Positions 6,556-63,999 of a stretch of DNA of 64,000 nt are shown here, in pieces. Source of the DNA: Gammaproteobacteria bacterium. GTDB lineage: Bacteria; Pseudomonadota; Gammaproteobacteria; GRL18. Positions within the stretch are counted from its first letter, which is position 1. Every line of letters begins with the position of its first letter. The DNA lies in assembly GCA_016744995.1 (NCBI GenBank), contig JADGDG010000001.1, positions 598,011 to 662,010 of the forward strand. Reading direction: 5' to 3'. Both the position numbers and the translations under genes were made by a program. The notes under the pieces were generated by a model. That model had not been told where the DNA came from. It saw only the letters and a program-made list of their open reading frames with translations, and searched no databases.

Positions 6556-6785
6556 GAAATCATAATAACGATTATATTAAGAGTCCTGTGCCTTTGTCGA
6601 ATGAAAGCACATTATTATATTGTGATTAAAGAATTAAATATCAATTTACTTTATAAAAACACTACTTTTAATAGTGTTATTAAAGTATTTTTTTGAATTA
6701 AAAAATCTTCAAATTAAATGACAAATTAACAAATACATCCTATTATTAAATAATAATAGTGACTTAATTATTAAGGATTACACTT

Positions 6786-15849: not shown

Positions 15850-15897
15850 GGGCCGGTTATCAGATTTAAACATTAATCTATCTAGAGGAAAATAACC

Positions 15898-20653: not shown

Positions 20654-20680
20654 AATGATAAAAATAAAGAGAAATTTATT

Positions 20681-21217: not shown

Positions 21218-21280
21218 CCAATGTTAACTAACATTTTAAATAACTCCTTATAGAAATCCAATCAAAAAAGAAATAATACT

Positions 21281-23855: not shown

Positions 23856-23864
23856 GGGTGTTTT

Positions 23865-24287: not shown

Positions 24288-24329
24288 TTCAGTACTCAAC
24301 TCAGTAAAAGCTTTATATCAGGAGTTACA

Positions 24330-24740: not shown

Positions 24741-24742
24741 TT

Positions 24743-37571: not shown

Positions 37572-38795
37572 TTATCTCTCAAGGCACCTCTCTTCTGCCT
37601 GGTAACATGCCGTCAGGCCCATTACAATCGATGCCGTTGTTAAACCCTGCATATAAGCCAGACCAGGATTAAGAATAAGGTTAATGGTCATGGCCGTTAT
37701 CCAGATCAGCAATGCCCAGATCAGTGGATTATGTTCCTGATACCGATGTCGATAATACCAGTTGGCTCGAATTAAACGTTTAAAAAGAAAGAAATTAAAG
37801 AAAACATATAAAAACGCACCAGTAAATCCATATTTAAATGTAATGCCAATAATCCCAAGATCAGAAGGAAAGAATTTTGGGCCAAAAATATCCTGATAGT
37901 TTTTTCCAAAATTGCTCCCCTGACCATAACCTAAAATTGGATATTTATAAATATTTTCAATAGCAGTATTAAATGATTTTGCCCGAACTCTATCTTTATT
38001 GACAAAGTTTTCAATTAAAATACCACTAACCAGTATGATGACACTCAATGCAATGGGTGCAACAAGAAGTAATATATTGATCCGCTTTGGACGGCTGAAC
38101 AAAAAGGGATAAACCATCATTGCCAGAGCCAGGGTTGCCATTTGCGAGCGTGCTTTAATTAGAAACCAGATATAGCTGACAATACATAACACGAGGAACC
38201 ATAAACATTTTTTTAGCAATGGTTTTTTTTGAAATAAGTACATACAGATATATAAAGTTATTATAAATAATGCAAAAGTGGGTGGTTTTAAACGATAACC
38301 TCGCCATTCATCGTATGTGATCAAATATTCCATATAACCATCTGATGAGAAGAATGCAGCCTGAAGATCAATACGAAAATAATGAAACAGATAATTAAAT
38401 ATAATAATAACAAGGCTGATCATCAAGATCCGTTCCAGCCTTTTAACTGGATAGCCTGATTTACAAACGAAATAAATTGCAGGGGCCAGAAAGACAATTA
38501 AAAATTCTCTGGTGGCAAAAAAACTCAGCATTGTCGGCGTATCTGAATACACTGAAAATGTAATGGATGCGATGCCCATTGTATACAAAACTAAAAGTGG
38601 AGCACTCCAAAACCACCAGGCCCAACGTTCTTTTTGACCTGACATTGCCACTTTAATTGCTGCATAAAGAAACAGCCCCAATGTGAGTGCAATGCCTATT
38701 TCCTGAAAACGATTATTCAGGAAATATTTTCCACCTTGAAAGCCTGCAAAAAAAATGAGAATAAATGTTACATCAATGATGTTTTTTATTTTCAT
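37572..38795 (-). CDS. O-antigen ligase/polymerase-like membrane protein (Wzy_C-type)
   Basis: This 407-residue polytopic protein has about 10-12 helices and the large periplasmic loop motif of the O-antigen ligase family (NIYKYPILGYGQGSN, near residue 290). It is expected either to polymerise repeat units or to ligate polysaccharide to a lipid acceptor. The ATG at 38795 is chosen; a GTG nine bases upstream is also possible, and neither has a strong ribosome site. The upstream gene on the same strand encodes a glycosyltransferase, so the pair belongs to polysaccharide synthesis. Polymerase and ligase cannot be told apart here. Confidence 0.8.
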   Translation of the reverse strand: MKIKNIIDVTFILIFFAGFQGGKYFLNNRFQEIGIALTLGLFLYAAIKVAMSGQKERWAWWFWSAPLLVLYTMGIASITFSVYSDTPTMLSFFATREFLIVFLAPAIYFVCKSGYPVKRLERILMISLVIIIFNYLFHYFRIDLQAAFFSSDGYMEYLITYDEWRGYRLKPPTFALFIITLYICMYLFQKKPLLKKCLWFLVLCIVSYIWFLIKARSQMATLALAMMVYPFLFSRPKRINILLLVAPIALSVIILVSGILIENFVNKDRVRAKSFNTAIENIYKYPILGYGQGSNFGKNYQDIFGPKFFPSDLGIIGITFKYGFTGAFLYVFFNFFLFKRLIRANWYYRHRYQEHNPLIWALLIWITAMTINLILNPGLAYMQGLTTASIVMGLTACYQAEERCLER

Positions 38796-38857
38796 AGAGA
38801 TCACACAAAATATTCTGAGACAGCATAACTTTTTTAATCATTAACTATACTCCAGAT

Positions 38858-39898
38858 TTAATGACTTATAGTATTTTTCCCAAATAAAATCTGAGCAATT
38901 AACTTCACTTTATCCCACTGACCACGACGGGCACGATTTAAAAGTTGTAAGATTGTCGTTAGATAAGCTGTTAAAATTGCCTCTGGAAAATATCGACGAG
39001 TCAATTTTAATTTATTTCTGAACAGATAAAAATCAGACAATAGTGATGATTGACGCTCACCACTCGGAGATCCGATACTACTGCCTTCTTTATGATAGAC
39101 TTTGGCACTCGGTGCATAACAAAGTGCATAAGTACCATTATTTCGTATACACCAGTCAATCTCTTCATAGTAAAGAAAGTAACTTTCTTCCATAAGCCCT
39201 ATTTCATGTAAAAAATTCTTTGGCAACAAGCAGGATGCCCCGGTAATATAGTCAAGTTGGCTTTCATAATAGGAATGGTCAATTACATCAGAGGTTGACT
39301 GACCTCTCCCATAAGTCGTAGTAGCATTGCCTGTCCACTTGTTGTATCCATTTCCTCCAAGAGCCTGAACAATTTCTGGATTGTCATAATACAGGATCAG
39401 ACTTCCACAAAGGTTGGCTTTCGGATAATTTTTTGTATATTTAACCATCTCACTCAGGCAATTAATTTCAATAACCGTATCATTATTGAGCAGCCAGACA
39501 TAATCAAAGTCATCCTGATTTTGAGCATAACGAAGAGCAACATTGTTACCAGCCGCAAAACCAAGGTTACCCCCAGTTTTAATAATCATTAACTCAGGCT
39601 GATTTTCATCTGAGATTTTAACTGATTCAGCTGTTTTTCTATCAATAACATGAGTGTTAATTGGTTTTGCTACTGGAGATAATGTTGATGAAAAGAATGC
39701 TGATTCATTTGAAAGCATAAGTAATTCTTTACCTTGTGCCCATGCCTGTATGTGTTGAATTGAATGATCTTCAGAAGCATTATCACAGACTATAACTTTA
39801 TAATTTTCATGATCCTGATGAAAAACAGACTCAAGGCATTCAATTGTATCTTGCCAGCCATTCCAATTCAGGATAACAATATAGACTTTAGGTATCAT
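38858..39898 (-). CDS. Family 2 glycosyltransferase
   Basis: This 346-residue GT2 enzyme starts with VYIVILNWNGWQDTIECLESV, the usual nucleotide-binding beginning, and has the DxD-like acceptor region WLLNNDTVI and the catalytic-side segment YLYYEEIDWCIR (here FLYYEEIDWCIR). It resembles rhamnosyltransferase-like GT2 proteins. The ATG at 39898 is chosen because AAGGAAA lies just upstream; an earlier in-frame start would add 19 unlikely residues. A Ser/Thr-rich insertion (about 65-95) separates the first two core strands. It is followed by the O-antigen-ligase-like gene. Confidence 0.9.
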   Translation of the reverse strand: MIPKVYIVILNWNGWQDTIECLESVFHQDHENYKVIVCDNASEDHSIQHIQAWAQGKELLMLSNESAFFSSTLSPVAKPINTHVIDRKTAESVKISDENQPELMIIKTGGNLGFAAGNNVALRYAQNQDDFDYVWLLNNDTVIEINCLSEMVKYTKNYPKANLCGSLILYYDNPEIVQALGGNGYNKWTGNATTTYGRGQSTSDVIDHSYYESQLDYITGASCLLPKNFLHEIGLMEESYFLYYEEIDWCIRNNGTYALCYAPSAKVYHKEGSSIGSPSGERQSSLLSDFYLFRNKLKLTRRYFPEAILTAYLTTILQLLNRARRGQWDKVKLIAQILFGKNTISH

Positions 39899-40149
39899 GG
39901 TATTTCCTTTCTTTATTTTTAATATCACCAGGACAAAAAGCAATTCCAGCCACAAAAACTATTACTCATAAAGCATGCTCAAAGTTATATCCCGGACGAT
40001 AAATAACAACAGCTTTTTAAAATATTCCAATGTTAATGAAATAATTTATTTATAAATGCACAAGACATTCCATAACAACAATAAACATTTAGTTTCAATG
40101 AGTTATCAATGATTATCTTAGGTAATTCTCATCATATGATGGGTATTAT

Positions 40150-41871: not shown

Positions 41872-43278
41872 TTATAATCCACTATCTTCCCAACTTTGTT
41901 TTTTCCGATAAATGGTGGACGGGCTCACCTCAAGTCTGGCAGCAGCTTGAGGTATATTTCCGTCACATAATACTATCGCTTCATTAATGACTTTTTGTTC
42001 TACTTTCCACAGTGGAATAATTTCATTGCTTTGTTGAGTACTTGTTTTGCCAGGAACTTCAGAAACAATAGAATAATTATTAATTGGCTGGATTTTTATC
42101 TTATTCAGTGGCGGGGGTAACATTTCTGGCGTTACAATATTAGCCTGATTTAATACCACTATATTTCTTATTACATTTTGTAATTGTCTGATATTACCAG
42201 GCCAGTCATATTCTAAAATCATTTGTTCTGCTTCAAGTGAAAAAGAAGTAAATGATTTTCCTTCTTCCTGACTATAGCTTGATAAAAACTCCCTTGCAAT
42301 TTTGATCACATCATTATCACGCTCTCTCAGAGGAGGTAATTCTATAGGGATCACATGCAGGCGGTAATAAAGATCTTCTCTGAAACGACCAGCTTTTACT
42401 TCTTCAAGTGGATCACGATTGGTTGCTGAAACAAATCGGATATCACCTTCTTCAATTTTACTACTGCCTACTTTTTGAAAAGTGCCTGTCTGGATAAATC
42501 GTAATAATTTACTTTGCAATTCCAGATCCATTTCACAAATTTCATCTAAAAATAATGTCCCGTTTCTCGCCTGACTAGCCGCTCCTTCACGATCTTTTAC
42601 TGCCCCGGTAAAAGCACCTTTTGCATGCCCAAAAATTTCACTTTCCATTAGATCTTTAGGAATGGCAGCACAGTTAAGTGGAATAAAGGCATTTTTTTTC
42701 CGATTACTTTCTTTGTGAAGTGCTTCCGCACAAAGTTCTTTACCAGTACCACTCTCTCCAATAATAAAGACACTGGCTTTGCTCTTAGCAGAGCTTTCAA
42801 TCATTCGATAGACCGATTGCATACTTAATGAAGCACCAATAAAACCATGAAAATGTTCTCTGGAAAAATTTTCCTGATAAGTTTCAACCATTTGATTGAG
42901 CCTTTTATGCTTCAGTACATTTTCAACGGTGACAATCAGACGGTTAGCATCAAATGGTTTTGTTAAAAAATCAGTGGCACCCAGACGCATAGTTTCTACT
43001 GCAAGATCTAAAGAGCCATGCGCTGTAATAATAACAACCTCACATGGAAGTTGCTGCTCTGAAATTTCTTTTAAAATATCAGTGCCATGCATATCAGGTA
43101 ATTGTAAATCAAGTAAGACCACATCGGGAATATTGCTGGAGAGATAATCTAAAGCATCCTCACCGGTGTCCACAACATAAACGCTATAGTCTTGTTTCTC
43201 AAGATAACTTCGATAAACAATTGATAGAGATTCATTATCCTCAACAATTAAAATATGTATTTTTGAATTGTTTTTCAT
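41872..43278 (-). CDS. LuxO-like sigma-54-dependent response regulator
   Basis: This 468-residue activator has a receiver (acidic E13/D14, acceptor D57 in LLDLQLPDMHG), a central AAA+ domain with Walker A (GESGTGKE), the sigma-54 contact loop GAFTGA and Walker B-like NGTLFLDEI, and a C-terminal Fis-type helix-turn-helix (IPQAAARLEVSPSTIYRKKQ). The segments GASLSMQSVYRMIESSAKSK and GKELCAEALHKES are close to Vibrio LuxO. It should activate sigma-54 promoters from upstream TTGCA-type sites when phosphorylated. Three such promoters occur in this window, two of them flanking this gene. The hybrid kinase with Hpt domain at 60174 is a candidate input. Confidence 0.9.
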   Translation of the reverse strand: MKNNSKIHILIVEDNESLSIVYRSYLEKQDYSVYVVDTGEDALDYLSSNIPDVVLLDLQLPDMHGTDILKEISEQQLPCEVVIITAHGSLDLAVETMRLGATDFLTKPFDANRLIVTVENVLKHKRLNQMVETYQENFSREHFHGFIGASLSMQSVYRMIESSAKSKASVFIIGESGTGKELCAEALHKESNRKKNAFIPLNCAAIPKDLMESEIFGHAKGAFTGAVKDREGAASQARNGTLFLDEICEMDLELQSKLLRFIQTGTFQKVGSSKIEEGDIRFVSATNRDPLEEVKAGRFREDLYYRLHVIPIELPPLRERDNDVIKIAREFLSSYSQEEGKSFTSFSLEAEQMILEYDWPGNIRQLQNVIRNIVVLNQANIVTPEMLPPPLNKIKIQPINNYSIVSEVPGKTSTQQSNEIIPLWKVEQKVINEAIVLCDGNIPQAAARLEVSPSTIYRKKQSWEDSGL

Positions 43279-43634: not shown

Positions 43635-44012
43635 ATGTGGTTTTCAACACCTTCAATTTTAGTTATTGACGATGACAGTTCCATTGGTATTTTAACTAAA
43701 GCAAGATTGAGCAGTCATGATAAATACAAAGTTGTCCTGGCAAGTAATGGTTATGACGGCATCAAATTTGCCCGAAATAATAATCCTGCACTTATTATTC
43801 TGGATTGGGTCATGCCAGGAATTAATGGCCTTGATGTTTTAAAGCAGATTAAAAGTAATCCAAATACTGCTCATATTCCTGTATTAATGTTAACAGGAAA
43901 AAATTTGATCGGAGAAATTGAGGAGGCTTTTGATGCTGGTGCAACAGACTATATAACCAAACCACTTGATCTGAAAAAGCTGAGTGCAAAGGTAAATTCG
44001 ATTTTAAATTAA
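43635..44012 (+). CDS. Single-domain response regulator (CheY-like)
   Basis: This 125-residue receiver has the acidic pair in VIDDDSS, acceptor Asp in IILDWVMPGINGLD, Thr in LMLTGK and Lys in ITKPLD. It is the first gene after a sigma-54 promoter and is followed 40 bases later by the STAS-sugar transferase gene. It has no output domain, so it would act by protein contact or as a phosphate sink. Its place ahead of a glycosyltransferase suggests post-translational control of polysaccharide synthesis, which is inference. Confidence 0.92.
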   Translation: MWFSTPSILVIDDDSSIGILTKARLSSHDKYKVVLASNGYDGIKFARNNNPALIILDWVMPGINGLDVLKQIKSNPNTAHIPVLMLTGKNLIGEIEEAFDAGATDYITKPLDLKKLSAKVNSILN

Positions 44013-44052
44013 GAGCTTACACTACATTTAAATATTATTATGGATGTTTATC

Positions 44053-45027
44053 ATGAATGCCGAAGTTAATTGGGAACAATTGCAATCCAATCATAAAAAA
44101 ATAACAAACATTGTTGTTGCCAACCGATTCAGTGCAATTGAAGCAGCTTCATTTCCAGCGCAATTTAAAAAAATTTGTACCCATAATAATAAACCATACA
44201 AAATTATACTGGATTTCTCAAAAACAAAATTCATTGACAGCAGCGGCATTGGAGCTCTTGTAAAAAGCATTAAATTAGCAAATGAATATGGTATCAAATT
44301 GCTTGTCTCTAAAACCAGCGATCAAGTTTATGCTGTTTTAAAAATGACCGGCTTAGAACAAATTCTTGTTTCAAAGCACCAGGAAATCCAAAGTGACAAG
44401 CTAAGTCTTCCTGAAACACATCCATCAGTGCACTCAAAAAGCAAACGAATTATTGACATTGTTGGTTCAATTGTTGGTCTGTTTATTACATCTATTCTGC
44501 TTATACCCATTGCCATTGCCATCAAAATAGAATCCAGTGGACCTCTTGTATTTTCTCAGACTCGACTGGGATGGCTTGGCAGTCCATTTAAAATTTATAA
44601 ATTCAGAACAATGTCTACTGATGCAGAAGCTCGTAAACATGAAATAAAAAATGAAGCAAATGGTCCTATTTTTAAATCTTCATTTGATCCACGCATCACC
44701 CGAGTTGGTCATTTTTTACGCCGAACCAGTCTTGATGAATTACCTCAATTTTGGAATGTGCTTCAAGGATCTATGAGTTTGGTCGGCACACGGCCACCAA
44801 CACCTGATGAAATTGAACAATATAACATACCTCACTGGCAGCGATTGGACGTCAAACCAGGTATTACTGGTGAATGGCAAGTCAATGGGCGCTCCTGTAT
44901 CAAAAATTTTGAAGATATTATTCAACTGGATTTAGATTACCAAAGAAAATGGAACCTTTTATATGATATCAAGCTCATTTTAAAAACAGTTATTGTTATA
45001 TTTTCCAAAGACAGTGGGGCCATATAA
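44053..45027 (+). CDS. STAS domain fused to an initiating undecaprenyl-phosphate sugar transferase
   Basis: This 324-residue protein is an unusual fusion. Residues 1 to about 110 form a STAS (anti-anti-sigma) domain with IDSSGIGAL (D62 and following Ser), the site phosphorylated by RsbW-type kinases. Residues about 130-324 are a bacterial sugar transferase of the WcaJ/PglC type: a membrane hairpin (RIIDIVGSIVGLFITSILLI), then FRTMSTDAE, RRTSLDELPQFWNVL, MSLVGTRPP and KPGITGEWQV. It should attach the first sugar phosphate to undecaprenyl phosphate at the inner membrane. The STAS domain replaces the usual N-terminal membrane/CoA-binding region. Start 44053 is chosen; 44044 is also possible. The stop shares a base with the next ATG. 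Confidence 0.9.
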   Translation: MNAEVNWEQLQSNHKKITNIVVANRFSAIEAASFPAQFKKICTHNNKPYKIILDFSKTKFIDSSGIGALVKSIKLANEYGIKLLVSKTSDQVYAVLKMTGLEQILVSKHQEIQSDKLSLPETHPSVHSKSKRIIDIVGSIVGLFITSILLIPIAIAIKIESSGPLVFSQTRLGWLGSPFKIYKFRTMSTDAEARKHEIKNEANGPIFKSSFDPRITRVGHFLRRTSLDELPQFWNVLQGSMSLVGTRPPTPDEIEQYNIPHWQRLDVKPGITGEWQVNGRSCIKNFEDIIQLDLDYQRKWNLLYDIKLILKTVIVIFSKDSGAI

Positions 45028-46331
45028 TGAAAAGTACGAATAATATTCCTATCAAAAAAGTTCTGTTTTTAACACCTGAACTCCCCTACCCTCCAGTAAG
45101 CGGTGGAAAAATGAAAAGCTGGAAATTACTGGAATTTTTGACTCAAAACTACCAGGTTTCTGTAGCTTCAATCCTCAAAGAAAATGATGAAGATCATGTA
45201 CATGATTTTATAAAACAAATACAGATTAATAATTTCTATTTCACTCCGGTTAAATGTGCCAGAGGAATCATGAATCTAATAAAAAGTTACTGGCACCAAA
45301 TACCGCTAAATATTTACAGAACTCATTCTGATTATTTTACAGCTAAAATCAAAGAGAATATTTATAACTATGATATGGTTATTATAGATCACTATGAGGT
45401 CTTTCAATATATTCCACAGGACTATAAGGGAAAGATTATCCTGCATGAACATAATGCTTATTATCTCATGTGGGATCGATATGCTAAAAACAGAGATCAT
45501 TCTTTTGCAAAACGTCTGGTTTGTTATTTTGAATCTATACGTGTCAAGAAATATGAAAAGAACGCCTGTGAACAGGCTCATCTTGTATTTGCATCCCCGA
45601 ATGATATTGACAGCCTTGAATCAATTGGTGTTAGCAGGGAAAAGTGCCGTTATACTTATCACCTTGGTGATGATAGTCAGCTAAAATTACCGGTACTAAA
45701 ATATGAAAACACACAAGAATCATTACTTTACATCGGTTCACTGGGCTGGGAGGCTAATGTCGATGGTTTACTCTGGTTTATAGGATCTGTCTGGCCTGAG
45801 TTGCTCAAACAACATCCACGACTCACTTTCAACATTGTTGGAAAAAATCCTGATCAGCGCTTGATCACTGCGGTTGAAGCCTGTCATGGGATCAAACTCA
45901 CAGGTTTTGTACAAAATTTAGAACCCTATTTTCAGCAACATCGAGTCTTTGTTGCACCACTTCGTTTTGGTGCAGGGATGAAAGTCAAAGTACTCAATGC
46001 CATGTGCAGAGGGATACCCACAGTAACAACCTCTGTCGGCAGTGAAGGTATGGAAGTCACTCATATGGAACATCTTGCTATTGCAGATGATACCAGGAGT
46101 ATGGTTGAGTCTATTCATACTTTGTTAAACAATAAGTCGGCCTGGCAGACTCTGGAGAAAAACTCCCGATCATTAGTAAAAGAAAAATACACCTGGAAGG
46201 CTCTGTTTCTATCAATGCTTAAAAACATTAATCAACTCTTAATGGAAACACATCAGCATGATACTAAAACAGAGACAAACAAGGCGGTAGATAATTTAAA
46301 AACAATTTTGAGTAAGACCACTTTATCTTGA
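45027..46331 (+). CDS. Family 4 (GT-B) glycosyltransferase
   Basis: This 434-residue GT-B enzyme opens with KVLFLTPELPYPPVSGGKMK and ends with the donor-binding half (LLYIGSLGWEANVDGLLWF, FVAPLRFGAGMKVKVLNAM, PTVTTSVGSEGMEV), typical of GT4. The start is coupled to the STAS-sugar transferase gene by a TAATG overlap, so the two enzymes probably act in sequence on the same lipid-linked glycan. The C-terminal 30 residues are polar and not conserved in type. Confidence 0.9.
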   Translation: MKSTNNIPIKKVLFLTPELPYPPVSGGKMKSWKLLEFLTQNYQVSVASILKENDEDHVHDFIKQIQINNFYFTPVKCARGIMNLIKSYWHQIPLNIYRTHSDYFTAKIKENIYNYDMVIIDHYEVFQYIPQDYKGKIILHEHNAYYLMWDRYAKNRDHSFAKRLVCYFESIRVKKYEKNACEQAHLVFASPNDIDSLESIGVSREKCRYTYHLGDDSQLKLPVLKYENTQESLLYIGSLGWEANVDGLLWFIGSVWPELLKQHPRLTFNIVGKNPDQRLITAVEACHGIKLTGFVQNLEPYFQQHRVFVAPLRFGAGMKVKVLNAMCRGIPTVTTSVGSEGMEVTHMEHLAIADDTRSMVESIHTLLNNKSAWQTLEKNSRSLVKEKYTWKALFLSMLKNINQLLMETHQHDTKTETNKAVDNLKTILSKTTLS

Positions 46332-54242: not shown

Positions 54243-55043
54243 TTAACGTACAGCAACATATTGTGCTTTATTCAGACTCATTTGCTGATAAATAGTTTCA
54301 GACAGTTCCTGATTTATCTGTTGTTCCAACTGACTGGTGATAACATAGCCTAAACTTCCATCAGTCCAAAAAGAAGCATTAAATGAGTTATTCCGGAGCA
54401 TTTTACTACTGTGGTTAATCGCTGTTTCTTTTTGCGGCCAGACTCCTCTTTTTATGTATAAGGTCACTCGTTCACCCTTTTTATTTTGATACATATATTG
54501 AGCTGCCATTCGCTCTTTTGTTGAAGGCAATAAACGACCACCCACTAATTCAAACTGATATTGTCTCAGATCGGGTGCTTTAATTTGTGTTTTTAAACGC
54601 TTTGACAACCAGTTGTTCATATGTTGTTTTTTATCTGCACCCACTTCAACAGGATGTAATTTTTCAACACTATAAACACTATGAGCAAACATAGCCGGGC
54701 TTTCCAAATCTATAGCCAGAGAGTCTCCGTGAGGGGTGCTGAAATTCTCTATCTGCCAACCAGACAACGCCCCTACAACAAAAAATAATATTGATGCGGC
54801 AATAGCAAGATAATTAAATGGTTTCTGTTTACAGGTATTCAATAAATGAGGCGGGATCATTTCTTCATATATGGGCTGATACAAGCCCTTTAATGATGCC
54901 TCAATTTTCTGATACTCGGCCATTTTTTTTTGTGCCGCAGGATTATTTTTTAAACGTGCCTGAAATTTTTTTGCATTTTCTGGCGTTAATTGTTGATCAA
55001 GATAAGCCTGTATCTCTTTATCATTTATAGTATCATGCATCAC
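54243..55043 (-). CDS. Membrane anti-sigma factor
   Basis: This 266-residue protein has an N-terminal cytoplasmic helical region of the anti-sigma type (IQAYLDQQLTPENAKKFQARL, about 10-30), one membrane helix near residues 78-98 (LAIAASILFFVVGALSGW) and a periplasmic C-terminal domain. There is no zinc-binding HxxxCxxC motif. It starts 5 bases after the sigma factor gene, the standard layout for an ECF sigma/anti-sigma pair. Confidence 0.83.
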   Translation of the reverse strand: MMHDTINDKEIQAYLDQQLTPENAKKFQARLKNNPAAQKKMAEYQKIEASLKGLYQPIYEEMIPPHLLNTCKQKPFNYLAIAASILFFVVGALSGWQIENFSTPHGDSLAIDLESPAMFAHSVYSVEKLHPVEVGADKKQHMNNWLSKRLKTQIKAPDLRQYQFELVGGRLLPSTKERMAAQYMYQNKKGERVTLYIKRGVWPQKETAINHSSKMLRNNSFNASFWTDGSLGYVITSQLEQQINQELSETIYQQMSLNKAQYVAVR

Positions 55044-55047
55044 TTTC

Positions 55048-55557
55048 TCACTTTACTCTTCTTAACAGGGTAGGATTTTCTCTAAACAAGATTTGTCTCA
55101 GCTTCTCTCTGCTTCTGTGTAATCGAGACATCACAGTGCCCATAGGAACATTAAGAATTTTTGCCACCTCCTCATATGAAAAGCCTTCTAACGAGACTAA
55201 TAGCATGACTTCTTTATGTTGTATGGGCAAGTTTTCCATATGCTTTTTAAGTTGAGCAGCAAAATAATCCTGAGCAGGATCATCGACTGCAGATTCAATC
55301 GATTCATGTTCCTGAATATCTTCAAATACATATGAACTGGATTTATTAACCTGATTAATAAATAAATTATGCATAATTGTAAACAGCCATGCTCTTAGAT
55401 TTGTATTTCGCATCCATAAAGTGTGTTTTTTTAAGGCTCGCTCCAGAGTATCCTGAACCAGATCATCTGCATAACACACACTATTTGAAGTTAAGGCTGT
55501 TGCATAACGACGTAAACTGGGAATATATTCAATTAATTTTGTTTCAAATTTTTTCAT
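55048..55557 (-). CDS. ECF-family RNA polymerase sigma factor
   Basis: This 169-residue protein has region 2 (YADDLVQDTLERALKK, WLFTIMHNLFIN) and region 4 (LPIQHKEVMLLVSLEGFSYEEVAKILNVPMGTVMSRLHRSREKL) and nothing else, as in ECF sigma factors. An AGAGG site precedes the ATG. The anti-sigma gene follows 4 bases later. The cytochrome P460 gene lies just upstream on the same strand and could belong to its regulon. Confidence 0.93.
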   Translation of the reverse strand: MKKFETKLIEYIPSLRRYATALTSNSVCYADDLVQDTLERALKKHTLWMRNTNLRAWLFTIMHNLFINQVNKSSSYVFEDIQEHESIESAVDDPAQDYFAAQLKKHMENLPIQHKEVMLLVSLEGFSYEEVAKILNVPMGTVMSRLHRSREKLRQILFRENPTLLRRVK

Positions 55558-55598
55558 TACTGCCTCTGTCAGCAGTCAAATAAGACAATTTATCTGTC

Positions 55599-55633
55599 AT
55601 TGAATACCCGCTGTTCATAAATGGGTATTCAAT
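55599..55633 (-). promoter_or_regulatory. Inverted repeat upstream of the ECF sigma gene
   Basis: ATTGAATACCC and GGGTATTCAAT form a perfect 11-bp inverted repeat with a 13-base loop, between the P460 stop and the sigma start. There is no T-run on the - strand, so an operator or attenuator is as likely as a terminator. Confidence 0.5.
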
Positions 55634-55669
55634 ACACATAAGTTAAAGAAATTATATTTACTTCAGGAG

Positions 55670-56173
55670 CTAAGGTAAACTCACAGGTGTTGTGTAAACA
55701 TAATCTCTGTCTTTTACTGGTGTATGACAAGCAAAGCATTCCAGAGTAAATTGCTCATTATTACCATATGGCTTTTGATCCAGACCTAACCAACGAGCAT
55801 ATCCCCAACCACCCGTTGCAGCATATTTTTCACTGTCTTTGAACATAAACTCTGCATGTATAAATTTATCAGGTACTATAGCTTTGTTCCAATGTTCATC
55901 ATTCTTCTGCTTCCATACTAATTTACCCAGAACTGCACCAGCAGGCCAGGGATTAGTCTCATGTGCACGAGCAGCTTGAATAGCAATATCATTACCAATA
56001 ATTATACGCAGCGAATTATTATCAATACGATGTGATTGTGAAATAACCTTCCAATCTTTGTAATTTTCAGGTAGTTCAATACCATTAGGCGCTGGTTTTA
56101 CATCTGCCGAAAATGAGTTGACACTCATTAATGATACACCAATTATAGTAACCAGATAAGATAATTTTTTCAT
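55670..56173 (-). CDS. Cytochrome P460-family protein
   Basis: This 167-residue exported protein has a signal peptide (KKLSYLVTIIGVSLMSVNSFSA) and a single c-type haem site near the C-terminus (CFACHTPVKDRDYVYT). Segments such as PENYKDWKVISQSHR, RIIIGNDIAIQAAR and PDGAVLGKLVWK-like (here PAGAVLGKLVWKQK) match the P460 family, whose members oxidise hydroxylamine or handle nitric oxide and related ligands. A cross-linking Lys cannot be confirmed by eye. ATG 56173 is preferred; 56185 is in frame. The ECF sigma and anti-sigma genes follow. Confidence 0.85.
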   Translation of the reverse strand: MKKLSYLVTIIGVSLMSVNSFSADVKPAPNGIELPENYKDWKVISQSHRIDNNSLRIIIGNDIAIQAARAHETNPWPAGAVLGKLVWKQKNDEHWNKAIVPDKFIHAEFMFKDSEKYAATGGWGYARWLGLDQKPYGNNEQFTLECFACHTPVKDRDYVYTTPVSLP

Positions 56174-56459
56174 TTTTTTTCCCATTATGACAGGTGATTT
56201 TTTTCATCATAGTTCCTGTTTATTTTGTTAATTATTTGTTTGCTACACTTTATAAACAGAATAGAATTGAAATTATTCCATTTTTATTAAATAATTTTAA
56301 AAAAATGCTAATGACTTAAGACCATTTTTTTCATGGGGAAAGGGATTCAGGTAAAGAAACAGGCTGAAGATAAGTGATTCATAGCATCGGAAATCATGAA
56401 CAAGTTATTAATAGTCAAGTAGCCAAACTAAATAACTATTCCTAAATAGTACACACTGA

Positions 56460-56534
56460 GTATCAGCTTCTATTGTTTATTATGGTGTGAGTTGACGCAG
56501 TCTGAGCACAATAATAAACAATAGAAGCTGATAC
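56460..56534. repeat. Perfect 24-bp inverted repeat with 27-base centre
   Basis: GTATCAGCTTCTATTGTTTATTAT (56460-56483) is the exact complement of 56511-56534. The 27-base centre can add a further short pairing (TGTG/CACA). It lies alone in the 491-bp gap between the P460 and kinase genes, where I see no other feature and no target-site duplication. It could be a folded RNA element, a double terminator or a small mobile-element remnant. Confidence 0.9.
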
Positions 56535-56664: not shown

Positions 56665-57069
56665 TCAGGGATTAGGAATTAATTTTTCTAGCAGAGTTGT
56701 ATTAACACCATCAATACTCGTATAGCGCACAGAATCTGTCCATTGCTGCATAATAAACCAGCCCCGGCCACTCTCACTTTCAGCGGCAACAAGTTTTTCA
56801 GGTATTGGCTGTATCATTGTCTTCCCAGTATCTGAGATGGTAATCGTTAATTGCTTATCCTGCATCAACCATTCAATATGAACGTTATTTCCAGCTTTAT
56901 TTTCATAGGCATGTATTATGGCATTATTAACCGCTTCAACAACGCAGGTTTCCATTTGAAAACAAGCTGTATCATCCATCCTATGTTCCCGGCACAGAGC
57001 CGATATTGCAATACCAACTAATGATACACGCTCCAGAAGACTTTCAATATCAAAGGAAATGCTTTGCAT
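56665..57069 (-). CDS. RsbW-like anti-sigma/serine kinase
   Basis: This 134-residue protein of the GHKL ATPase type has the N-box ETCVVEAVNNAIIHAYEN, a G1 box ISDTGK and a G2 segment SGRGWFIMQQ, as in RsbW/SpoIIAB. Such kinases phosphorylate the Ser of STAS domains. It is the last gene of an operon that also encodes a PP2C phosphatase and a glycosyltransferase with two STAS domains, which are the likely substrates. No sigma factor gene is in this operon. Confidence 0.9.
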   Translation of the reverse strand: MQSISFDIESLLERVSLVGIAISALCREHRMDDTACFQMETCVVEAVNNAIIHAYENKAGNNVHIEWLMQDKQLTITISDTGKTMIQPIPEKLVAAESESGRGWFIMQQWTDSVRYTSIDGVNTTLLEKLIPNP

Positions 57070-57117
57070 GGGATCACTCTTTGAAAAATTACAGACATAC
57101 TCAGTTCAAATATACGT

Positions 57118-58347
57118 TCAATAGGGCTTTATTTCAACACCAAGCAAAGAGATATCATCAGCAAAAGAGTCACTCCATACCCCAAGCCCATGCCACTGCT
57201 CAACACTGGTCACAATATTATTTAGACTCTGCTTCAACGTTTGCTGACTCGATTGTTGTAGAACCGCCTGTAAACGCTGAAGTTCATAGAGTGAATCATT
57301 ATGATCACAGCACTCTGTAATACCATCTGAATAGAGCAGGAAACGGTCACCAGGATTCAAATGAAAGTTCACATTGCTATAGTGTGCATCATCAATTAAA
57401 CCCACAGGATGCCCCCCCTGCCCCAGGATATCCATGGCTCCATTCTGCCTTGCAACAATGGGATAAGGATGCCCTGCCTGACAGAGCGTTCCATCACCAG
57501 TCTGAGTATTTACAATGGCATAAACCATTGTAAAATAAATAATTTCATCATTATCATCAAGAAAGTTTTCATTCAGCAGTTGAATAATTGCAGCAGGATC
57601 TCTGAAACAGGAAGATGTATTTACATGACTGTTTTCATAATAAATAAATTCTGAACATTTTTCTGGGCACAACATCTTATTCAGATACACCGATAACATC
57701 GCCGCAGGAACCCCATGACCAGAGACGTCTATTAAATATAATGCCAGATGAACATCATCCAATGGATAAAAACCAAATAAATCACCCGCCAATTCATCTG
57801 CAGGCCTATAATCCCAGGAAATATTAACTGGCAATTCTATATTGGTTGATTTAGGCAGCAATGCCTGCTGTATTTTGACTGCGGCATTAATATCATTTTT
57901 TATTCGTTGATAGTTTTGTTTTATTTTATTATGGGCTGATTTAAGCTGATTATTTTTTTCTAATAGTTCTCGTTCCAGTTTCAGCACTCTTTGACCTGCC
58001 TTAAGACGAACCTTTAATTCTTTGGAAGAAACAGGTTTTGAAATATAATCATCAGCCCCTGATTCAAAACCAGTCACCAAATCATCATTTGAATCTTTTG
58101 CTGTAAGCAAAATAACATACACATACTGAGCACTTTCTAAATCACTCCTCACACGCTGACACAGCTCAACACCTGATAGTTTTGGCATCATCCAGTCAGT
58201 GAGCAATAAATGAATGCTTTCTGTCTGTAACACCTGCCAGGCGGCTTCACCATCAAAACAAATGACTGTTTGATGGCCCCATTTTTCCAATACATTTTTC
58301 AGGTACAAACAAACAGATTGATCATCATCAACAATTAGAATTTTCAT
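57118..58347 (-). CDS. Receiver-PP2C (SpoIIE-type) phosphatase response regulator
   Basis: This 409-residue protein has an N-terminal receiver (IVDDDQS, acceptor in LLTDWMMPKLSG near residue 52, ISKP), a coiled linker (about 125-160) and a SpoIIE-type PP2C domain with DELAGDLFGF, LIDVSGHGVPAAM and LYSDGITECCD. It is built like RsbU/RssB-type phosphatases that dephosphorylate STAS proteins when the receiver is phosphorylated. It lies between the STAS-fused glycosyltransferase and the RsbW-like kinase, completing a partner switch. Confidence 0.92.
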   Translation of the reverse strand: MKILIVDDDQSVCLYLKNVLEKWGHQTVICFDGEAAWQVLQTESIHLLLTDWMMPKLSGVELCQRVRSDLESAQYVYVILLTAKDSNDDLVTGFESGADDYISKPVSSKELKVRLKAGQRVLKLERELLEKNNQLKSAHNKIKQNYQRIKNDINAAVKIQQALLPKSTNIELPVNISWDYRPADELAGDLFGFYPLDDVHLALYLIDVSGHGVPAAMLSVYLNKMLCPEKCSEFIYYENSHVNTSSCFRDPAAIIQLLNENFLDDNDEIIYFTMVYAIVNTQTGDGTLCQAGHPYPIVARQNGAMDILGQGGHPVGLIDDAHYSNVNFHLNPGDRFLLYSDGITECCDHNDSLYELQRLQAVLQQSSQQTLKQSLNNIVTSVEQWHGLGVWSDSFADDISLLGVEIKPY

Positions 58348-58377
58348 ATTTTTTATATCCGGCGAGTGCTTCTGATA

Positions 58378-59946
58378 CTATTGATTTAATGCCAGTTTTG
58401 CATCTTTTTTACTATCATAGATATTAAAAAAATCATGCAAATTAGTTATGTCCAACAACTGACAAATCATTTCAGTGGGATTGATTAACACCATTTGTTT
58501 ATTACGCTTTTTTAGATCACGTTCCAGCTGGAAAAAAAATCGTAAACCTGTACTGTCTAAAAAAGAAAGACTGGATAAATCAAGAATACAATCACCAGAA
58601 CCCAATAATCTGATTGATTCATTAAAATCCATTAAAGAAATAGCGCTGGCATCTAAACGTCCCACCAGATGGGCAATTGTTAATTTTTCATTTTGTTCAT
58701 CAATAATAATATATTTGTTTTCATTAAAATTTTTACTTTTTTCAGGATAAAAGAGGGGTAAGGTTTCTTTACTTCCAGATTCATTGAACAAATCCCAAAC
58801 ATGAGTCAACTTCAACAAACGCACAACATCATCATTAACCAGACCAGTAGATGAAACGCTCATCTGATTTTTTTGTGCTCGTTTATACAGTCTGACCAAC
58901 ATGCCTAATGCATTTGAATCAATCATTTCAACATCAATAAAATCAAATATCAGATTTTTATATTCCAGTAAATAATTCTCCCAATTATCGATAATAATCT
59001 GCATACTTCGACTATCCAACCGTCTGGATAACTTAATCTTCACTTCATATGAATTCCAACCTTGTATGATATCACTTGGATAGGCTTTATTATCATGCAT
59101 TAAGGCTCGATTTTTTTTTCTTTGTATTAAATTAGAAAGTAATAACGGAATAGTTATGACACATAACTTAGGGATTGCAATAGCATAGCGTTTCCATAAT
59201 CTTTTGGGATCCTGCAGTATTCGATGGATCCATTCAAAACCACTTTTTTGCACCCAGACTGGCGCCCTGCTGACGTTGCCCACAATAAACTCATAGGTAC
59301 CACCAATTCCAATAGTGACAGCGGCCTTTAATTTATGGCTATTACGGTTGAACCACAGCTCTTGCTTTGGATTGCCAAAACCAACCAATAAAATATCAGG
59401 CCTTACTTTGTTTATTTTTTCCAGGATTAATTTATCCTGTTCATCAGCTGTCAGCATTTCTTCACCTTCGGTGTAAACAAAAGGAGAGTCAACACCAGCC
59501 ACATTGAGTCCAGGATATTTCTGTATTAATTTATCCGCCGCCTGTTGGCCGATATCACCACTTCCACCCAGAAAATAAACAGAGTGCCCCGTTTGAGCAA
59601 TTGTTTTTGCTAACGCAGGTACCAGGTCAGATCCAGCTACACGTGCTTGTATTGGTGCATGCAATAAACGCGATAACCAGACAATGGGCATTCCATCTGC
59701 AGTGACCAAATCTGCATTTTGTAAAATTTCTAATAATTCAGGGTGCCTGGCAGGACCGAACGGAAACCAGCTTAATGAATTCATTAAAAAATCTACATTG
59801 ACTGTCGCCACCTGTCTTGGTCGCCAGTCCAGTTGATAATCTCTTATCATAGAAAGGATATGCTGGATCGTTGAATCAAGCGAAAGATCATCAACAGGGA
59901 CACCTAAAATCATCACTTCCGGCAATTGTTCAGTCTGGTTATGCAT
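58378..59946 (-). CDS. WecG/TagA/CpsF glycosyltransferase fused to two STAS domains
   Basis: This 522-residue protein starts with a GT26 (WecG/TagA) domain of about 250 residues: LGVPVDDLSLDSTIQHIL, the catalytic region NADLVTADGMPIVW, FLGGSGDIGQQAA, VGFGNPKQELWF and GGTYEFIVGNVSRAP. A basic, hydrophobic stretch near 260-275 follows, then two STAS domains with DSNALGML (D343) and DSTGLRFF (D464), both keeping the Ser after Asp. ATG 59946 is preferred over 59961 because GTGG lies at the right spacing. The enzyme should add an N-acetylmannosaminuronate- or ManNAc-type sugar to a lipid-linked glycan. The PP2C and RsbW-like genes follow 30 and 48 bases apart. Confidence 0.9.
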   Translation of the reverse strand: MHNQTEQLPEVMILGVPVDDLSLDSTIQHILSMIRDYQLDWRPRQVATVNVDFLMNSLSWFPFGPARHPELLEILQNADLVTADGMPIVWLSRLLHAPIQARVAGSDLVPALAKTIAQTGHSVYFLGGSGDIGQQAADKLIQKYPGLNVAGVDSPFVYTEGEEMLTADEQDKLILEKINKVRPDILLVGFGNPKQELWFNRNSHKLKAAVTIGIGGTYEFIVGNVSRAPVWVQKSGFEWIHRILQDPKRLWKRYAIAIPKLCVITIPLLLSNLIQRKKNRALMHDNKAYPSDIIQGWNSYEVKIKLSRRLDSRSMQIIIDNWENYLLEYKNLIFDFIDVEMIDSNALGMLVRLYKRAQKNQMSVSSTGLVNDDVVRLLKLTHVWDLFNESGSKETLPLFYPEKSKNFNENKYIIIDEQNEKLTIAHLVGRLDASAISLMDFNESIRLLGSGDCILDLSSLSFLDSTGLRFFFQLERDLKKRNKQMVLINPTEMICQLLDITNLHDFFNIYDSKKDAKLALNQ

Positions 59947-59985
59947 ATTTTCACCACTCATTTATCTATTAAGTAATGGTATTAA

Positions 59986-60173: not shown

Positions 60174-63100
60174 CTAAGGGAATTTTTTTGAGAAAACAGC
60201 CATTGTTTCAGGTATAAGTTTCAATAAAGAGGCTGATAATAAAAAAACTTGCTGCTGATCATTTTCTTTACAGGCAGTATCTGCCATTTTTGCTATGGAC
60301 TGTAATTTCAGAGCACCATAAGTACCACTACTGCTTTTTAATGCATGTACTTCAGAAGCAATACCTTCAACATTTTTCTGCTCACAGGCCTGCTCAATGT
60401 TCACCAGACGCTTTTTAAGTTCTTTAAGAAAAACAGTAATCATTTCAGGAACCAGTTCCGCAGAAGTATCTTCTGCTAATTGTTGCAAAACTTTATCATC
60501 CATATAAGGTAATTCATTTAACTGTGGTACAAGCACATTGTTTTCAGCTAAAGTCACTGCTTCATCGGTAGCTGGTTTTGTGCTCAGATGATGTGCGGGT
60601 TTAAAATTTGAAACATCCTCAATTTTCTGTAATAGTTCAGCAGCCACAAATGGCTTTGAAATATAGTCATTCATGCCCGCCTGCAAACAATATTCTTTAT
60701 CTCCTTTTACAGCATTGGCAGTCATGGCAATAATTGCTATTTGAGAGACCTTGCCTGGCATTTTTCGTATGATTTTAGTTGCCTCTATCCCATCCATTAC
60801 AGGCATCATTAGATCCATTAAAATCAGATCAAAAATACGGTTACTTTCAACTGACCGGTTAATCGCGTCTATCGCCTGTTGACCATTTTTAGCAATTTCA
60901 AGTGTATGTCCTGCTTTACTTAATACCGCTTGTGCAACAATAATATTAGCTTGACTATCTTCTGCCAGTAAAATATTCAAAAGTTTAAAAGAAGCTGTTC
61001 CCTGTTCAACTTTAACTATTTCCTGTTTAGGATATTGCTGCTGATCAATATCCAGTATCAGTGTAAACCAAAACTGACTACCTGCTCCTGTTTCACTTTC
61101 CACTCCAATTTCACCACCAAGCAGGTTCACTAATTTTTTACAAATTGCCAGCCCCAGTCCCGTCCCTTCAAATCGACGATTATGCTTTTGATCAATTTGA
61201 GAAAAAACCTGAAATAATTTTGTTTGCTGTTCTTTACTTATACCGATCCCACTATCAATAATTTCAAATTTTAGCTGAATTTTTTGATCAACTTGTTTTA
61301 TCTTTTTTATCACACAACTGACCTCACCCCCTTCCGTAAATTTTAAAGCATTATTAAGCAGGTTGATGAGAATTTGTTTGATTCTTAACTTGTCTGAAAT
61401 TAAGTAACACGGAATATCACTACCAAGATGATAGTTTAGTTTATTATTTTGAGAAGCTGCCTTTTCTGAAAACATTTTAAAACAGTCTGAAAGTAAATCT
61501 TCTATTGAAAAAGTAGTTTTTTCTATTTCTAATTTATTTGCTTCAATTTTTGAAAAATCAAGAATTTCATTAATGATATGTAATAAAGACATCGCAGACT
61601 GATCAGCCGTATCAATATATTTTTGCTGCTCTTGATCAAGTGTCGTCTCTTTTAATAAGCCCAAAGTGCCTAAAATGGCATTCATCGGTGTTCTGATTTC
61701 ATGACTCATCGTTGCTAAAAAATCACTCTTCGCTTCATTCGCCAGTTCTGCCTGTTTTCGAGCAATGGTCAGTTTTTCTTCTGCCTGTTTTCGTTGTGTA
61801 ATATCAACAAAATGTGCCACATAATACATTTCATTACCATGTATATCCTGAACAGAACTAATACTCAGCCATTCTGGATAGATTTCGCCATTATTTCTTT
61901 TATTATATATTTCCCCTTCCCAATACCCTGTTTCTTTAATACTCTTCCACATTGCTTTATAAAAAGCTCTATCCTGGCGGCCAGAAGATAATATTTTTGG
62001 CGATTGTCCAATCACTTCATCTGCTGAATATCCAGTGATCTTACAAAAGGCCTTATTGACTCGAAGGATCTTAGTATTACTATCACTAATAAAAATAGCT
62101 TCATGTGCCTCAAAGGCACAAGCAGAGAGTAATAACTCATTTTGTGCATTTTCCTGTTCAGTAATATCACGAATAAACACTGCAAAATAGAGTGTTTTTC
62201 CACTTTCTATAGGTGATATGCTTAATTCAATTGGGAAAACATTTCCTTGTTTATTAATACCCTTAAATCTAAGTCGTTGATTAAATATTGTACTCTCACC
62301 TGTTTTAAGGTAGTTTTTAAAGCCATATTCATGCATGGCCCTATATTCTTCAGGGATAATTAATTCAGCCATTGATGAATTAATAGCCTCTTTTCTGCTA
62401 TAACCAAAAACTTGCTCAGCAACATGATTGTATTCAACAATAATCCCTTGAGTATTTATGCTGACTATTGCATCAAGTGATGAGGACAACACAGCTTTCA
62501 CAAAGGCTTCACTTTCACTGGCCAGTTCAGCAATTTTTTTATTGGCAGTGTTAATATTTTTTAAATCTTTATAAGAATCAGATAAACTGACCGACATCTG
62601 ATTAAATGATTCTGCTACCTGAGCGACCTCATCATGACCTTTAACCGCTACCTGATGACCAGGGCCATGCTCAGTAATTATTTCTGATGCTTTTTTTAAC
62701 TGAGATAATTGTCGTGTCAACCAGGTACCTAAAATAAATGAAAAGATAGCCACCAGAGTGACTTCGATAGAAGCAATAACAATACTCCAATGGCTGGCCT
62801 GATCCAGCACCTCACGAATTCTGGCGATTGAAAGACCTATTTCCACACGGCCATAAATATAATCAGACTCCACAATATCGGCAGAGACATCAAACACTCC
62901 ATCACTAACTTGATCAAGCGAGGCATCATTCTTATAAATCCGCTGAAGATGCTTCTTCTTACCTCCCTGAGCTAAGACTATGCCATCACCATAAATACGT
63001 GCATAGACTATATCCTCATTGGTCAGCAGATCTTTAACAAAACTTTCCAGGGAGGCCAAATCAGAAGCCAGCACCGCATCTTTACTCATGGTGGCAAAGA

Positions 63101-63242
63101 GCTTTGCCGTGGATAATGCCCGTTGGTTAATTTCTTTTTCATGGGATGTATGCAGAAAACCTAATACACTCATGATTAAGGTCAATAGTAAAATTGATTC
63201 TATCAGAGCAATACCAATAATGGTTTTAAAGCGAAAACTCAC
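60174..63242 (-). CDS. Hybrid histidine kinase: sensor-HAMP-PAS-PAS-HisKA-HATPase-REC-Hpt
   Basis: This 1,022-residue membrane kinase starts at GTG 63242 with AGGA just upstream. It has helices at about 7-29 and 155-175 around a periplasmic domain, HAMP (about 175-228), two PAS domains (ending RDITEQENAQNEL and VDITQRKQAEEKL), HisKA with SHEIRTPMNAIL (His514), HATPase (DSGIGI, FEGTGLGLAI), one receiver (LAEDSQ, acceptor D810 in LMDLMMPVMDG) and a C-terminal Hpt domain (HALKSSSGTYGA, His966). It can run a four-step phosphorelay to a separate regulator. The gene directly upstream encodes a PhnD-like binding protein, its probable ligand partner, recalling LuxP-LuxQ. Confidence 0.93.
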   Translation of the reverse strand: MSFRFKTIIGIALIESILLLTLIMSVLGFLHTSHEKEINQRALSTAKLFATMSKDAVLASDLASLESFVKDLLTNEDIVYARIYGDGIVLAQGGKKKHLQRIYKNDASLDQVSDGVFDVSADIVESDYIYGRVEIGLSIARIREVLDQASHWSIVIASIEVTLVAIFSFILGTWLTRQLSQLKKASEIITEHGPGHQVAVKGHDEVAQVAESFNQMSVSLSDSYKDLKNINTANKKIAELASESEAFVKAVLSSSLDAIVSINTQGIIVEYNHVAEQVFGYSRKEAINSSMAELIIPEEYRAMHEYGFKNYLKTGESTIFNQRLRFKGINKQGNVFPIELSISPIESGKTLYFAVFIRDITEQENAQNELLLSACAFEAHEAIFISDSNTKILRVNKAFCKITGYSADEVIGQSPKILSSGRQDRAFYKAMWKSIKETGYWEGEIYNKRNNGEIYPEWLSISSVQDIHGNEMYYVAHFVDITQRKQAEEKLTIARKQAELANEAKSDFLATMSHEIRTPMNAILGTLGLLKETTLDQEQQKYIDTADQSAMSLLHIINEILDFSKIEANKLEIEKTTFSIEDLLSDCFKMFSEKAASQNNKLNYHLGSDIPCYLISDKLRIKQILINLLNNALKFTEGGEVSCVIKKIKQVDQKIQLKFEIIDSGIGISKEQQTKLFQVFSQIDQKHNRRFEGTGLGLAICKKLVNLLGGEIGVESETGAGSQFWFTLILDIDQQQYPKQEIVKVEQGTASFKLLNILLAEDSQANIIVAQAVLSKAGHTLEIAKNGQQAIDAINRSVESNRIFDLILMDLMMPVMDGIEATKIIRKMPGKVSQIAIIAMTANAVKGDKEYCLQAGMNDYISKPFVAAELLQKIEDVSNFKPAHHLSTKPATDEAVTLAENNVLVPQLNELPYMDDKVLQQLAEDTSAELVPEMITVFLKELKKRLVNIEQACEQKNVEGIASEVHALKSSSGTYGALKLQSIAKMADTACKENDQQQVFLLSASLLKLIPETMAVFSKKFP

Positions 63243-63258
63243 AATATTATTTCCTGGA

Positions 63259-63999
63259 TTAGTTCATATTAAGCAAATCTATTTTTAAACCCCGTACATC
63301 ATCCCAGTCTTTATCATTTGCTTTCGTGATACCTTTGAGTTTTATAGATTTTAATAAGCTTTTACCTTGCTCTGTATCATTCAAATCAGCAAATGCTGCC
63401 TGAATTTTTTCAACAAGATGACTATCCATTTTGGGATGAGCAGCAAAAGCATGTGGTGTATACCCCTTACTAGTCCATAAGATTTTTAACTGCTTGCTGA
63501 TTTCCGGCAGCATATTTTTAAAAGTGCGGATCACACCACCTCCGGCCGGGTATAATCCTTTTGCGACTGCACGATAGACAGAATCATGAGAAGAGACATA
63601 TTTCTCACTGACGGGAATATTTTCTTTGGCAAAAAAAGCTCTGGGTAAAACCGTAGCAGCAAAAGCTGCTGGTGCAGGAAAAGCAAGAGTATTACCAGAA
63701 AGCTGTTTCATTTCTGTTATGTTGCTGTCTTTTTTGATCACTATAATACCTTTGATTTTTTTATCTAAAGCCTTAGCAAAAGCAATATAGCCTGGATTTT
63801 TACTATAGACTGTATAGTGATAAGGATTCATATAGGCCATATCATATTCTCCGGCAGCGACTCTTTTTTCAAAAATTGGAATATTTGGTGCGGTTCGAAA
63901 TTTAATCGTAACACCAACCTGCTTACTGATATTTTGTAATATAGGCGTCCATAACCGGGCTAATTTACTGGCGGATTGTTGTGGTACGACTGCAAATGT
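63259..63999 (-). CDS. PhnD-like phosphate/phosphonate-type periplasmic binding protein (5' end outside window)
   Basis: The frame is open to the window edge, so the signal peptide and N-terminus are not visible; 246 residues are present. Segments such as GEYDMAYMNPYHYTVYSK, LSGNTLAFPAPAAFAATV, HDSVYRAVAKGLYPAGGGVIRTF and WTSKGYTPHAFAAHP match the PhnD/PBP-like family. It ends 16 bases before the hybrid kinase GTG, so the two are in one operon. No transporter gene is adjacent, which suggests sensing rather than uptake. The ligand is unknown. Confidence 0.85.
   Translation of the reverse strand, partial: TFAVVPQQSASKLARLWTPILQNISKQVGVTIKFRTAPNIPIFEKRVAAGEYDMAYMNPYHYTVYSKNPGYIAFAKALDKKIKGIIVIKKDSNITEMKQLSGNTLAFPAPAAFAATVLPRAFFAKENIPVSEKYVSSHDSVYRAVAKGLYPAGGGVIRTFKNMLPEISKQLKILWTSKGYTPHAFAAHPKMDSHLVEKIQAAFADLNDTEQGKSLLKSIKLKGITKANDKDWDDVRGLKIDLLNMN

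Follow-up and report, generated by a model that had tools for sequence, protein, structure and literature searches.

In this study, we analyzed a 64,000-nucleotide stretch of a gammaproteobacterial genome (assembly GCA_016744995.1, contig JADGDG010000001.1, positions 598,011 to 662,010), hereafter the window, and propose with moderate confidence that it encodes a partner switch acting at the level of the enzymes of a Wzx/Wzy-type polysaccharide pathway. The switch centers on an operon (59961-56665, minus strand) whose three genes, all on one strand, encode a WecG/TagA-family (GT26) glycosyltransferase fused to two STAS domains (WecG-STAS-STAS), a SpoIIE-type PP2C phosphatase with a receiver domain (REC-PP2C), and an RsbW/SpoIIAB-like kinase. 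A second STAS-bearing enzyme, a polyprenyl-phosphate sugar-1-phosphate transferase (STAS-Bac_transf), is encoded elsewhere in the window. The original prediction, made from the DNA letters of the window, had described a phospho-switch governing polysaccharide assembly; linkage, co-occurrence, and decay of the phosphosite motif support this description, whereas the kinase-substrate pairing, the polarity of the switch, complex formation, and the effect on enzyme activity are inferred.

The list of open reading frames (ORFs) and Pfam agree on the place and domains of the three genes given in that prediction, and the catalytic motifs of all three proteins are intact. WecG-STAS-STAS (527 amino acids, 58378-59961) is separated by 30 nt from REC-PP2C (409 amino acids, 57118-58347), which is separated by 48 nt from the HATPase_c_2 kinase (134 amino acids, 56665-57069). 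The claimed fusion of STAS domains to the glycosyltransferase is borne out by Pfam matches to Glyco_tran_WecG (2.8e-59) and, in two stretches, to STAS (1.6e-21) within the one 527-residue ORF. Its second in-frame ATG, at 59946, is the start used in the prediction and agrees with the start of the homologues in two genomes of the same genus (G006 and G007). In a Foldseek search with the AlphaFold2 model of this protein (predicted local distance difference test score, pLDDT, 82.5; predicted template modeling score, pTM, 0.83), the top match was TagA (7n41, E 2.7e-13), followed by the anti-sigma antagonist 4hyl, SpoIIAA, and RsbV. The GT26 catalytic part (residues 16-260, 59182-59916), which also gave a profile match to TagA (7mpk/5wb4), contains the features that mark WecG/TagA enzymes of GT26 in a motif table of 34 homologues: the T-x-N motif in TVN(V)D (residues 52-58), the catalytic Asp89 in TADG, and the C-terminal RL..RY appendage in RLWKRY (254-259).

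All parts of a partner-switching module are present in the window: a HATPase_c_2 kinase, a STAS domain with its phosphosite, and a PP2C domain with its aspartates. The kinase (PF13581, 3.7e-21) has profile matches to SpoIIAB (1til) and RsbW (6m36) and retains E45 and N48/N49 of the N-box, D80-x-G82, and the G101-R-G box, which align with those of SpoIIAB. REC-PP2C combines a SpoIIE domain (2e-38), in which the metal-binding aspartates D189, D207, D341, and D397/D398 are kept, with the expected receiver (Response_reg, 2.6e-25), whose acid pocket (D8/D9, D51, T82, and K104) is conserved. The two STAS domains of the GT26 enzyme differ at the phosphosite. STAS2 (residues 417-521, 58399-58713) has the canonical D-S-[ST]-G site; in LSFLDSTGL, Ser470 (codon 58552-58554), the predicted phosphoacceptor, aligns with Ser58 of SpoIIAA (LSFMDSSGL) and Ser56 of RsbV (VSYMDSTGL) and is invariant in a 13-sequence alignment of Gammaproteobacteria and Desulfoluna. 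STAS1 (residues 302-397, 58771-59058), whose closest structural relative is MlaB, lacks the D-S-[ST]-G pattern, and the position reads DSNA in the window, DPYA in G007, and DFNA in G006. Across all members, STAS2 is the only one of the two for which phosphorylation is likely.

The STAS-fused sugar transferase that the prediction placed at 44053 is a real ORF (44044-45027, plus strand), and 44053 is probably its true start. It has Bac_transf (5e-65) and N-terminal STAS (2.2e-11) matches. Its catalytic part aligns with WbaP (9s7s) over residues 133-324 and contains the Asp-Glu pair of monotopic phosphoglycosyl transferases in SLDELPQ, where D231 and E232 are invariant. The STAS domain matches TM1442 and has a canonical phosphosite, FIDSSGIG, with Ser66 (codon 44239-44241) as the predicted phosphoacceptor; this DSSG is kept in G007 and in stand-alone STAS genes of Desulfobacteria. 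The structure model was of moderate quality (pLDDT 71.8, pTM 0.56), and no reading was drawn from it. No further STAS-Bac_transf fusion turned up among 359 Pseudomonadota and 291 Desulfobacteria genomes, in which matches at E<=1e-50 span the catalytic part only. The gene is preceded by a stand-alone REC gene (43635-44012, plus strand), which is kept in all five genomes of the genus that have the system.

Among the 16 genomes of the window's genus surveyed, WecG-STAS-STAS and STAS-Bac_transf are present in the identical five (G000, G002, G006, G007, and G012). The polysaccharide switch is variable within the genus, being absent from the other members, including genomes rated 99-100% complete (set G001-G015). 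The kinase gene adjoins in four of the five carriers; in the fifth, G012, the contig stops within REC-PP2C. In G007, one 12.8-kb contig unites both enzymes: WecG-STAS-STAS, REC-PP2C, and the kinase, in this order, face a set of genes for GT2, GT4, STAS-Bac_transf, and REC on the opposite strand. The three-gene unit is retained in its congeners with 54-85% identity and is therefore not a product of chance, and a chance overlap of domains was ruled out by this conserved block. A mobile cassette was also ruled out, as a plasmid copy was not found (the plasmid search returned WecG matches only, without the STAS fusion) and the gene order is reshuffled instead of the genes traveling as a unit. This conservation also bears on the alternative that the kinase and phosphatase regulate other STAS proteins and lie beside WecG-STAS-STAS incidentally. 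The genome does offer other candidates, with 13 STAS matches in 12 genes; however, the operon's kinase is the best of just three above-cut-off HATPase_c_2 matches in 5.2 Mb, and the unit is kept as a block in congeners and recurs, rearranged, in Desulfobacteria, so that we consider this alternative very improbable.

In Desulfobacteria, surveyed by class and by order, full-length WecG-STAS-STAS fusions occur in about 1 of 25 genomes, and the same parts recur in other arrangements. Locus L083 (genome G125) has them in a single operon, with genes in this order for a hybrid histidine kinase, REC-PP2C, a HATPase_c_2 kinase, a STAS protein (DSSG), Bac_transf, and WecG-STAS-STAS; sugar-nucleotide genes, glycosyltransferase genes, and a gene for SLBB export come next. 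In L089, a REC-PP2C-HATPase_c_2 fusion precedes BacA (undecaprenyl pyrophosphate phosphatase) and WecG-STAS-STAS. L090 has the L089 order by hidden Markov model matches and length, with a 546-amino acid REC-PP2C-kinase, a 271-amino acid protein matched by length alone, and a 524-amino acid WecG-STAS-STAS. In L064, L126, L127, and L129, a kinase lies near STAS and Bac_transf, and no PP2C was found adjoining. Separately, L085 contains an 867-amino acid GT2-WecG-STAS-STAS triple fusion (4347-6950).

In 9 of the 14 fusion-bearing genomes, WecG-STAS-STAS has a PF13581 kinase no more than 30 kb away, whereas the number of kinases, the size of the genomes, and the contig ends would lead one to expect 0.61 (nominal P = 5e-10, ignoring relatedness). 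The Pfam family was used as the kinase baseline because an RsbW query at E<=1e-3 missed diverged kinases. By contrast, in Halieaceae and relatives the kinase is within 30 kb in 0 of 13 cases, against 0.33 expected. The prediction had named random fusions unlinked to switch genes as a finding that would refute it; the surveyed fusions are not random, given their presence in the same 5 of 16 congeners, the joint locus of G007, the L083 operon, the excess of linked kinases, and the phosphosite decay described next. In a tree of WecG domains whose deep order is not resolved, the fused proteins form one group in which 34 of 35 members are fused, which is compatible with a single origin of the fusion. 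In a search across Gammaproteobacteria (369 genomes, E<=1e-45), the genus of the window was the only one in which the fusion was found; the Halieaceae are missing from this result because the even draw of genomes held no carriers from that family, and its members were found by a family search with scores of 1e-82 to 1e-95.

Motif decay goes with the absence of the kinase. Among 34 homologues, STAS2 has retained its D-S in lineages with a kinase at or near the locus; in the Desulfobacteria both STAS domains have done so, except STAS1 of L087. In 13 Halieaceae-type loci, in whose fetched stretches neither a kinase nor a phosphatase was detected, D-S is lost in STAS1, and STAS2 has E-S or H-S (one has D-T-S-G). 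Such decay at loci without a kinase is expected if the role of D-S-[ST]-G is tied to the kinase.

The Halieaceae also indicate the pathway to which the two enzymes belong. There, and in one Cellvibrionaceae strain, WecG-STAS-STAS sits inside a compact polysaccharide cluster that encodes Bac_transf, GT4, Wzx, a sulfotransferase, an SLBB export protein, a Wzc-like protein, WecG-STAS-STAS, GT2, Wzy, an NtrC-type activator, and a hybrid kinase. The window's polysaccharide proteins match those of eight such clusters along the greater part of each protein, at 25-54% identity, with one exception, a partial NtrC match in one cluster. They comprise SLBB/Wza export, Wzz/Wzc-like, Wzx flippase, and sulfotransferase proteins (368-6482, plus strand), Wzy/O-antigen-ligase-like and GT2 proteins (37572-39955, minus strand), whose homologues lie beside the Halieaceae WecG-STAS-STAS, an NtrC-type sigma-54 activator (41872-43278, minus strand) with 50-54% identity to the activator in most clusters, and a GT4 glycosyltransferase (45027-46331, plus strand). 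The window therefore has the same pathway in dispersed form. The idea that two enzymes of one pathway bear STAS modules gains support from this cluster, and both probably serve that pathway, as the initiating transferase and the GT26 enzyme. In one cluster, L037, a Haem-NO-binding (HNOB) protein (15382-15936) adjoins the hybrid kinase and is a possible nitric oxide or O2 input to the same pathway.

Several observations weigh against an enzyme-level phospho-switch. Halieaceae retain WecG-STAS-STAS despite decayed motifs and no linked switch, and for this reason the fused STAS probably has a phosphorylation-independent role as well. STAS1 is degenerate in the window's own lineage. Four genomes (G057, G215, G329, and G719) have no PP2C beside kinase-STAS-Bac_transf, and L081, L085, L111, L112, and other Desulfobacteria carriers have no kinase in the stretch examined, some contigs being short. 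The co-location estimate counts related genomes as independent. In L089 and L090, which form a long branch in the WecG-domain tree, the catalytic Asp of WecG is lost.

The Halieaceae pattern is what would be expected if the STAS domains were an assembly scaffold that holds the two membrane-surface enzymes together, with phosphorylation secondary or merely tuning assembly. The kinship of STAS1 with MlaB, a STAS protein that acts through protein contact, points in the same direction, as does the fact that enzymes of these two families catalyze consecutive lipid-linked steps. However, the Halieaceae-type Bac_transf proteins, where the fetched stretch includes one, have no STAS domain, which leaves no STAS-STAS pair to hold, and a pure scaffold would need neither the DS[ST]G sites conserved in the other lineages nor the repeated linkage to kinase and PP2C genes seen there. 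We regard a scaffold as unlikely.

In a conventional switch, the kinase would be an anti-sigma factor, and the STAS enzymes, as anti-anti-sigma proteins, would relay enzyme occupancy to transcription. The kinase is indeed of the RsbW/SpoIIAB type, and the claim that a sigma factor is absent is true of the operon but not of its surroundings, where an extracytoplasmic function (ECF) sigma gene (55048-55557, minus strand) lies 1.1 kb downstream on the far side of a cytochrome P460 gene; this or another sigma factor could be the target. The loss of the catalytic Asp in L089 and L090 would also suit a protein turned regulator. Nevertheless, the cognate sigma gene that SigB/SigF-type systems have in or beside the operon was not found: the operon encodes no sigma factor, the ECF gene lies beyond another gene, and in G007 a GT2 glycosyltransferase gene comes after the kinase. 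A possible anti-sigma gene of its own (54243-55043, minus strand; no Pfam hit) comes after the ECF gene, the partners of SpoIIAB and RsbW are of the sigma-F/sigma-B class, and local transcription control of the polysaccharide cluster is provided by the NtrC-type sigma-54 activator. A switch directed at a sigma factor is, in our assessment, improbable. Downstream of the module, the minus-strand stretch 54243-56185 thus comprises cytochrome P460, the ECF sigma factor, and the possible anti-sigma protein.

We propose a mechanism for the enzyme-level switch based on these data. The RsbW-like kinase would phosphorylate Ser470 in STAS2 of the GT26 enzyme and probably also Ser66 in the STAS domain of the initiating transferase, and REC-PP2C would remove both phosphates. 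Depending on their phosphorylation state, the kinase would hold the two early enzymes or leave them free for contact with each other and with the membrane. As these enzymes are predicted to perform the first steps of lipid-linked repeat assembly, namely sugar-1-phosphate loading and then addition of the second sugar, polymer output could be started or stopped with no need for fresh transcription. Activity probably lies with the unphosphorylated form, in analogy to SypE/SypA, and STAS1 may be a structural or dimerization module.

REC-PP2C would be switched by a phosphorelay, most likely from the neighboring binding protein/histidine kinase pair. This pair consists of a hybrid histidine kinase with HAMP-PAS-PAS-HisKA-HATPase-REC-Hpt architecture (60174-63242, minus strand), the probable input to the phosphatase receiver, and a phosphonate-binding-type periplasmic protein (63259-63999, minus strand) that extends past the window end. 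In G000 and G012, the pair (60174-63999) lies next to the WecG operon, on its upstream side; it is also kept in G006, where the histidine kinase homologue adjoins genes for REC, STAS-Bac_transf, GT4, and GT2 in this order. Because the pair accompanies the WecG operon in two species and the REC and STAS-Bac_transf genes in a third, both modules are tied to one candidate input.

Among known systems, that of the window is closest to SypE/SypA and HmpUVW. In the syp polysaccharide locus of Vibrio fischeri, an RsbW-type kinase, a receiver, and a PP2C likewise control a STAS serine, and a phosphorelay feeds the switch, which acts below the level of transcription on polysaccharide and biofilm output (PMC4517449, PMC10120452). 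However, SypA is a stand-alone STAS protein and SypE unites kinase, receiver, and phosphatase, whereas the window has STAS domains fused to enzymes and separate kinase and phosphatase genes; a fused REC-PP2C-kinase occurs in the relatives L089 and L090. The target of SypA, a single-STAS biofilm polysaccharide regulator, is reported as unknown (PMC10120452, PMC11112999), and so is that of HmpU/HmpW/HmpV, a phosphatase, kinase, and STAS switch tied to polysaccharide and hormogonium motility in Nostoc punctiforme (PMC8256260). Unlike the window proteins, the HmpV STAS is stand-alone, with no enzyme fusion reported (PMC8256260). A fusion of STAS to a glycosyltransferase as such has already been noted: Anabaena all4160, as cited in PMC8256260, is a glycosyltransferase needed for the heterocyst envelope polysaccharide, with its STAS domain at the N-terminus, unlike the WecG fusion.

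Pseudomonas HsbR/HsbA and Shewanella CrsR/CrsA also pair a REC-PP2C-kinase with a STAS protein, and the L089 fusion shares their domain order. These switches reach sigma factors (RpoS, and FliA via FlgM) and cyclic diguanosine monophosphate (c-di-GMP), not glycosyltransferases; HsbA has a further partner that is an enzyme, the diguanylate cyclase HsbD (PMC6482189). The kinase, STAS serine, and PP2C families are those of RsbW/RsbV/RsbU and SpoIIAB/SpoIIAA/SpoIIE in B. subtilis, but the window operon has no sigma-F/sigma-B partner and its STAS domains are part of an enzyme. The catalytic domains and motifs resemble those of TagA/TarA/WecG (GT26) and WbaP-type phosphoglycosyl transferases, although the solved members matched have no STAS domain. 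Literature searches pairing STAS with WecG or with undecaprenyl returned nothing, and no paper that links a kinase/phosphatase pair with STAS-fused Bac_transf or GT26 was found, most subscription journals being outside the search.

With about even confidence, we further suggest a partner-switch class whose output is enzyme activity. The window's lineage would have STAS built into the first two enzymes of repeat assembly, SypA and HmpV would act on the same enzymes in trans, and the STAS gene beside Bac_transf in Desulfobacteria would be another form of the fused STAS-Bac_transf. A lineage with fused STAS supplies a concrete candidate target for SypA-like regulators, the first enzymes of repeat-unit assembly, and suggests what 'orphan' switches of other bacteria may act on. 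If true, partner switching would extend from transcription to direct enzyme control and provide a simple mechanism for the fast shut-off of polysaccharide synthesis, in a system that also occurs in culturable bacteria such as Desulfoluna.

Three further features were observed. The WecG-STAS-STAS copies of L089 (7567-9135, directly after BacA) and L090 (8675-10249) have IPVG in place of TADG; the proteins of this branch may act in regulation only, perhaps as a regulator that arose from the enzyme. Just 3' of the kinase gene of the window, a 28-nt inverted repeat (56460-56534; 96% complementary, 19-nt loop), with no second copy in the window, may serve as a terminator or represent a small mobile element. 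A second switch of a different kind is encoded at 18944-21664 (plus strand) by genes for a SpoIIE-type phosphatase, a DUF6272 protein, and a SiaC-family phosphoprotein; with the Hpt/CheA-like protein, two receivers, and GGDEF protein that follow (21696-25771), they constitute a SiaABCD-like set.

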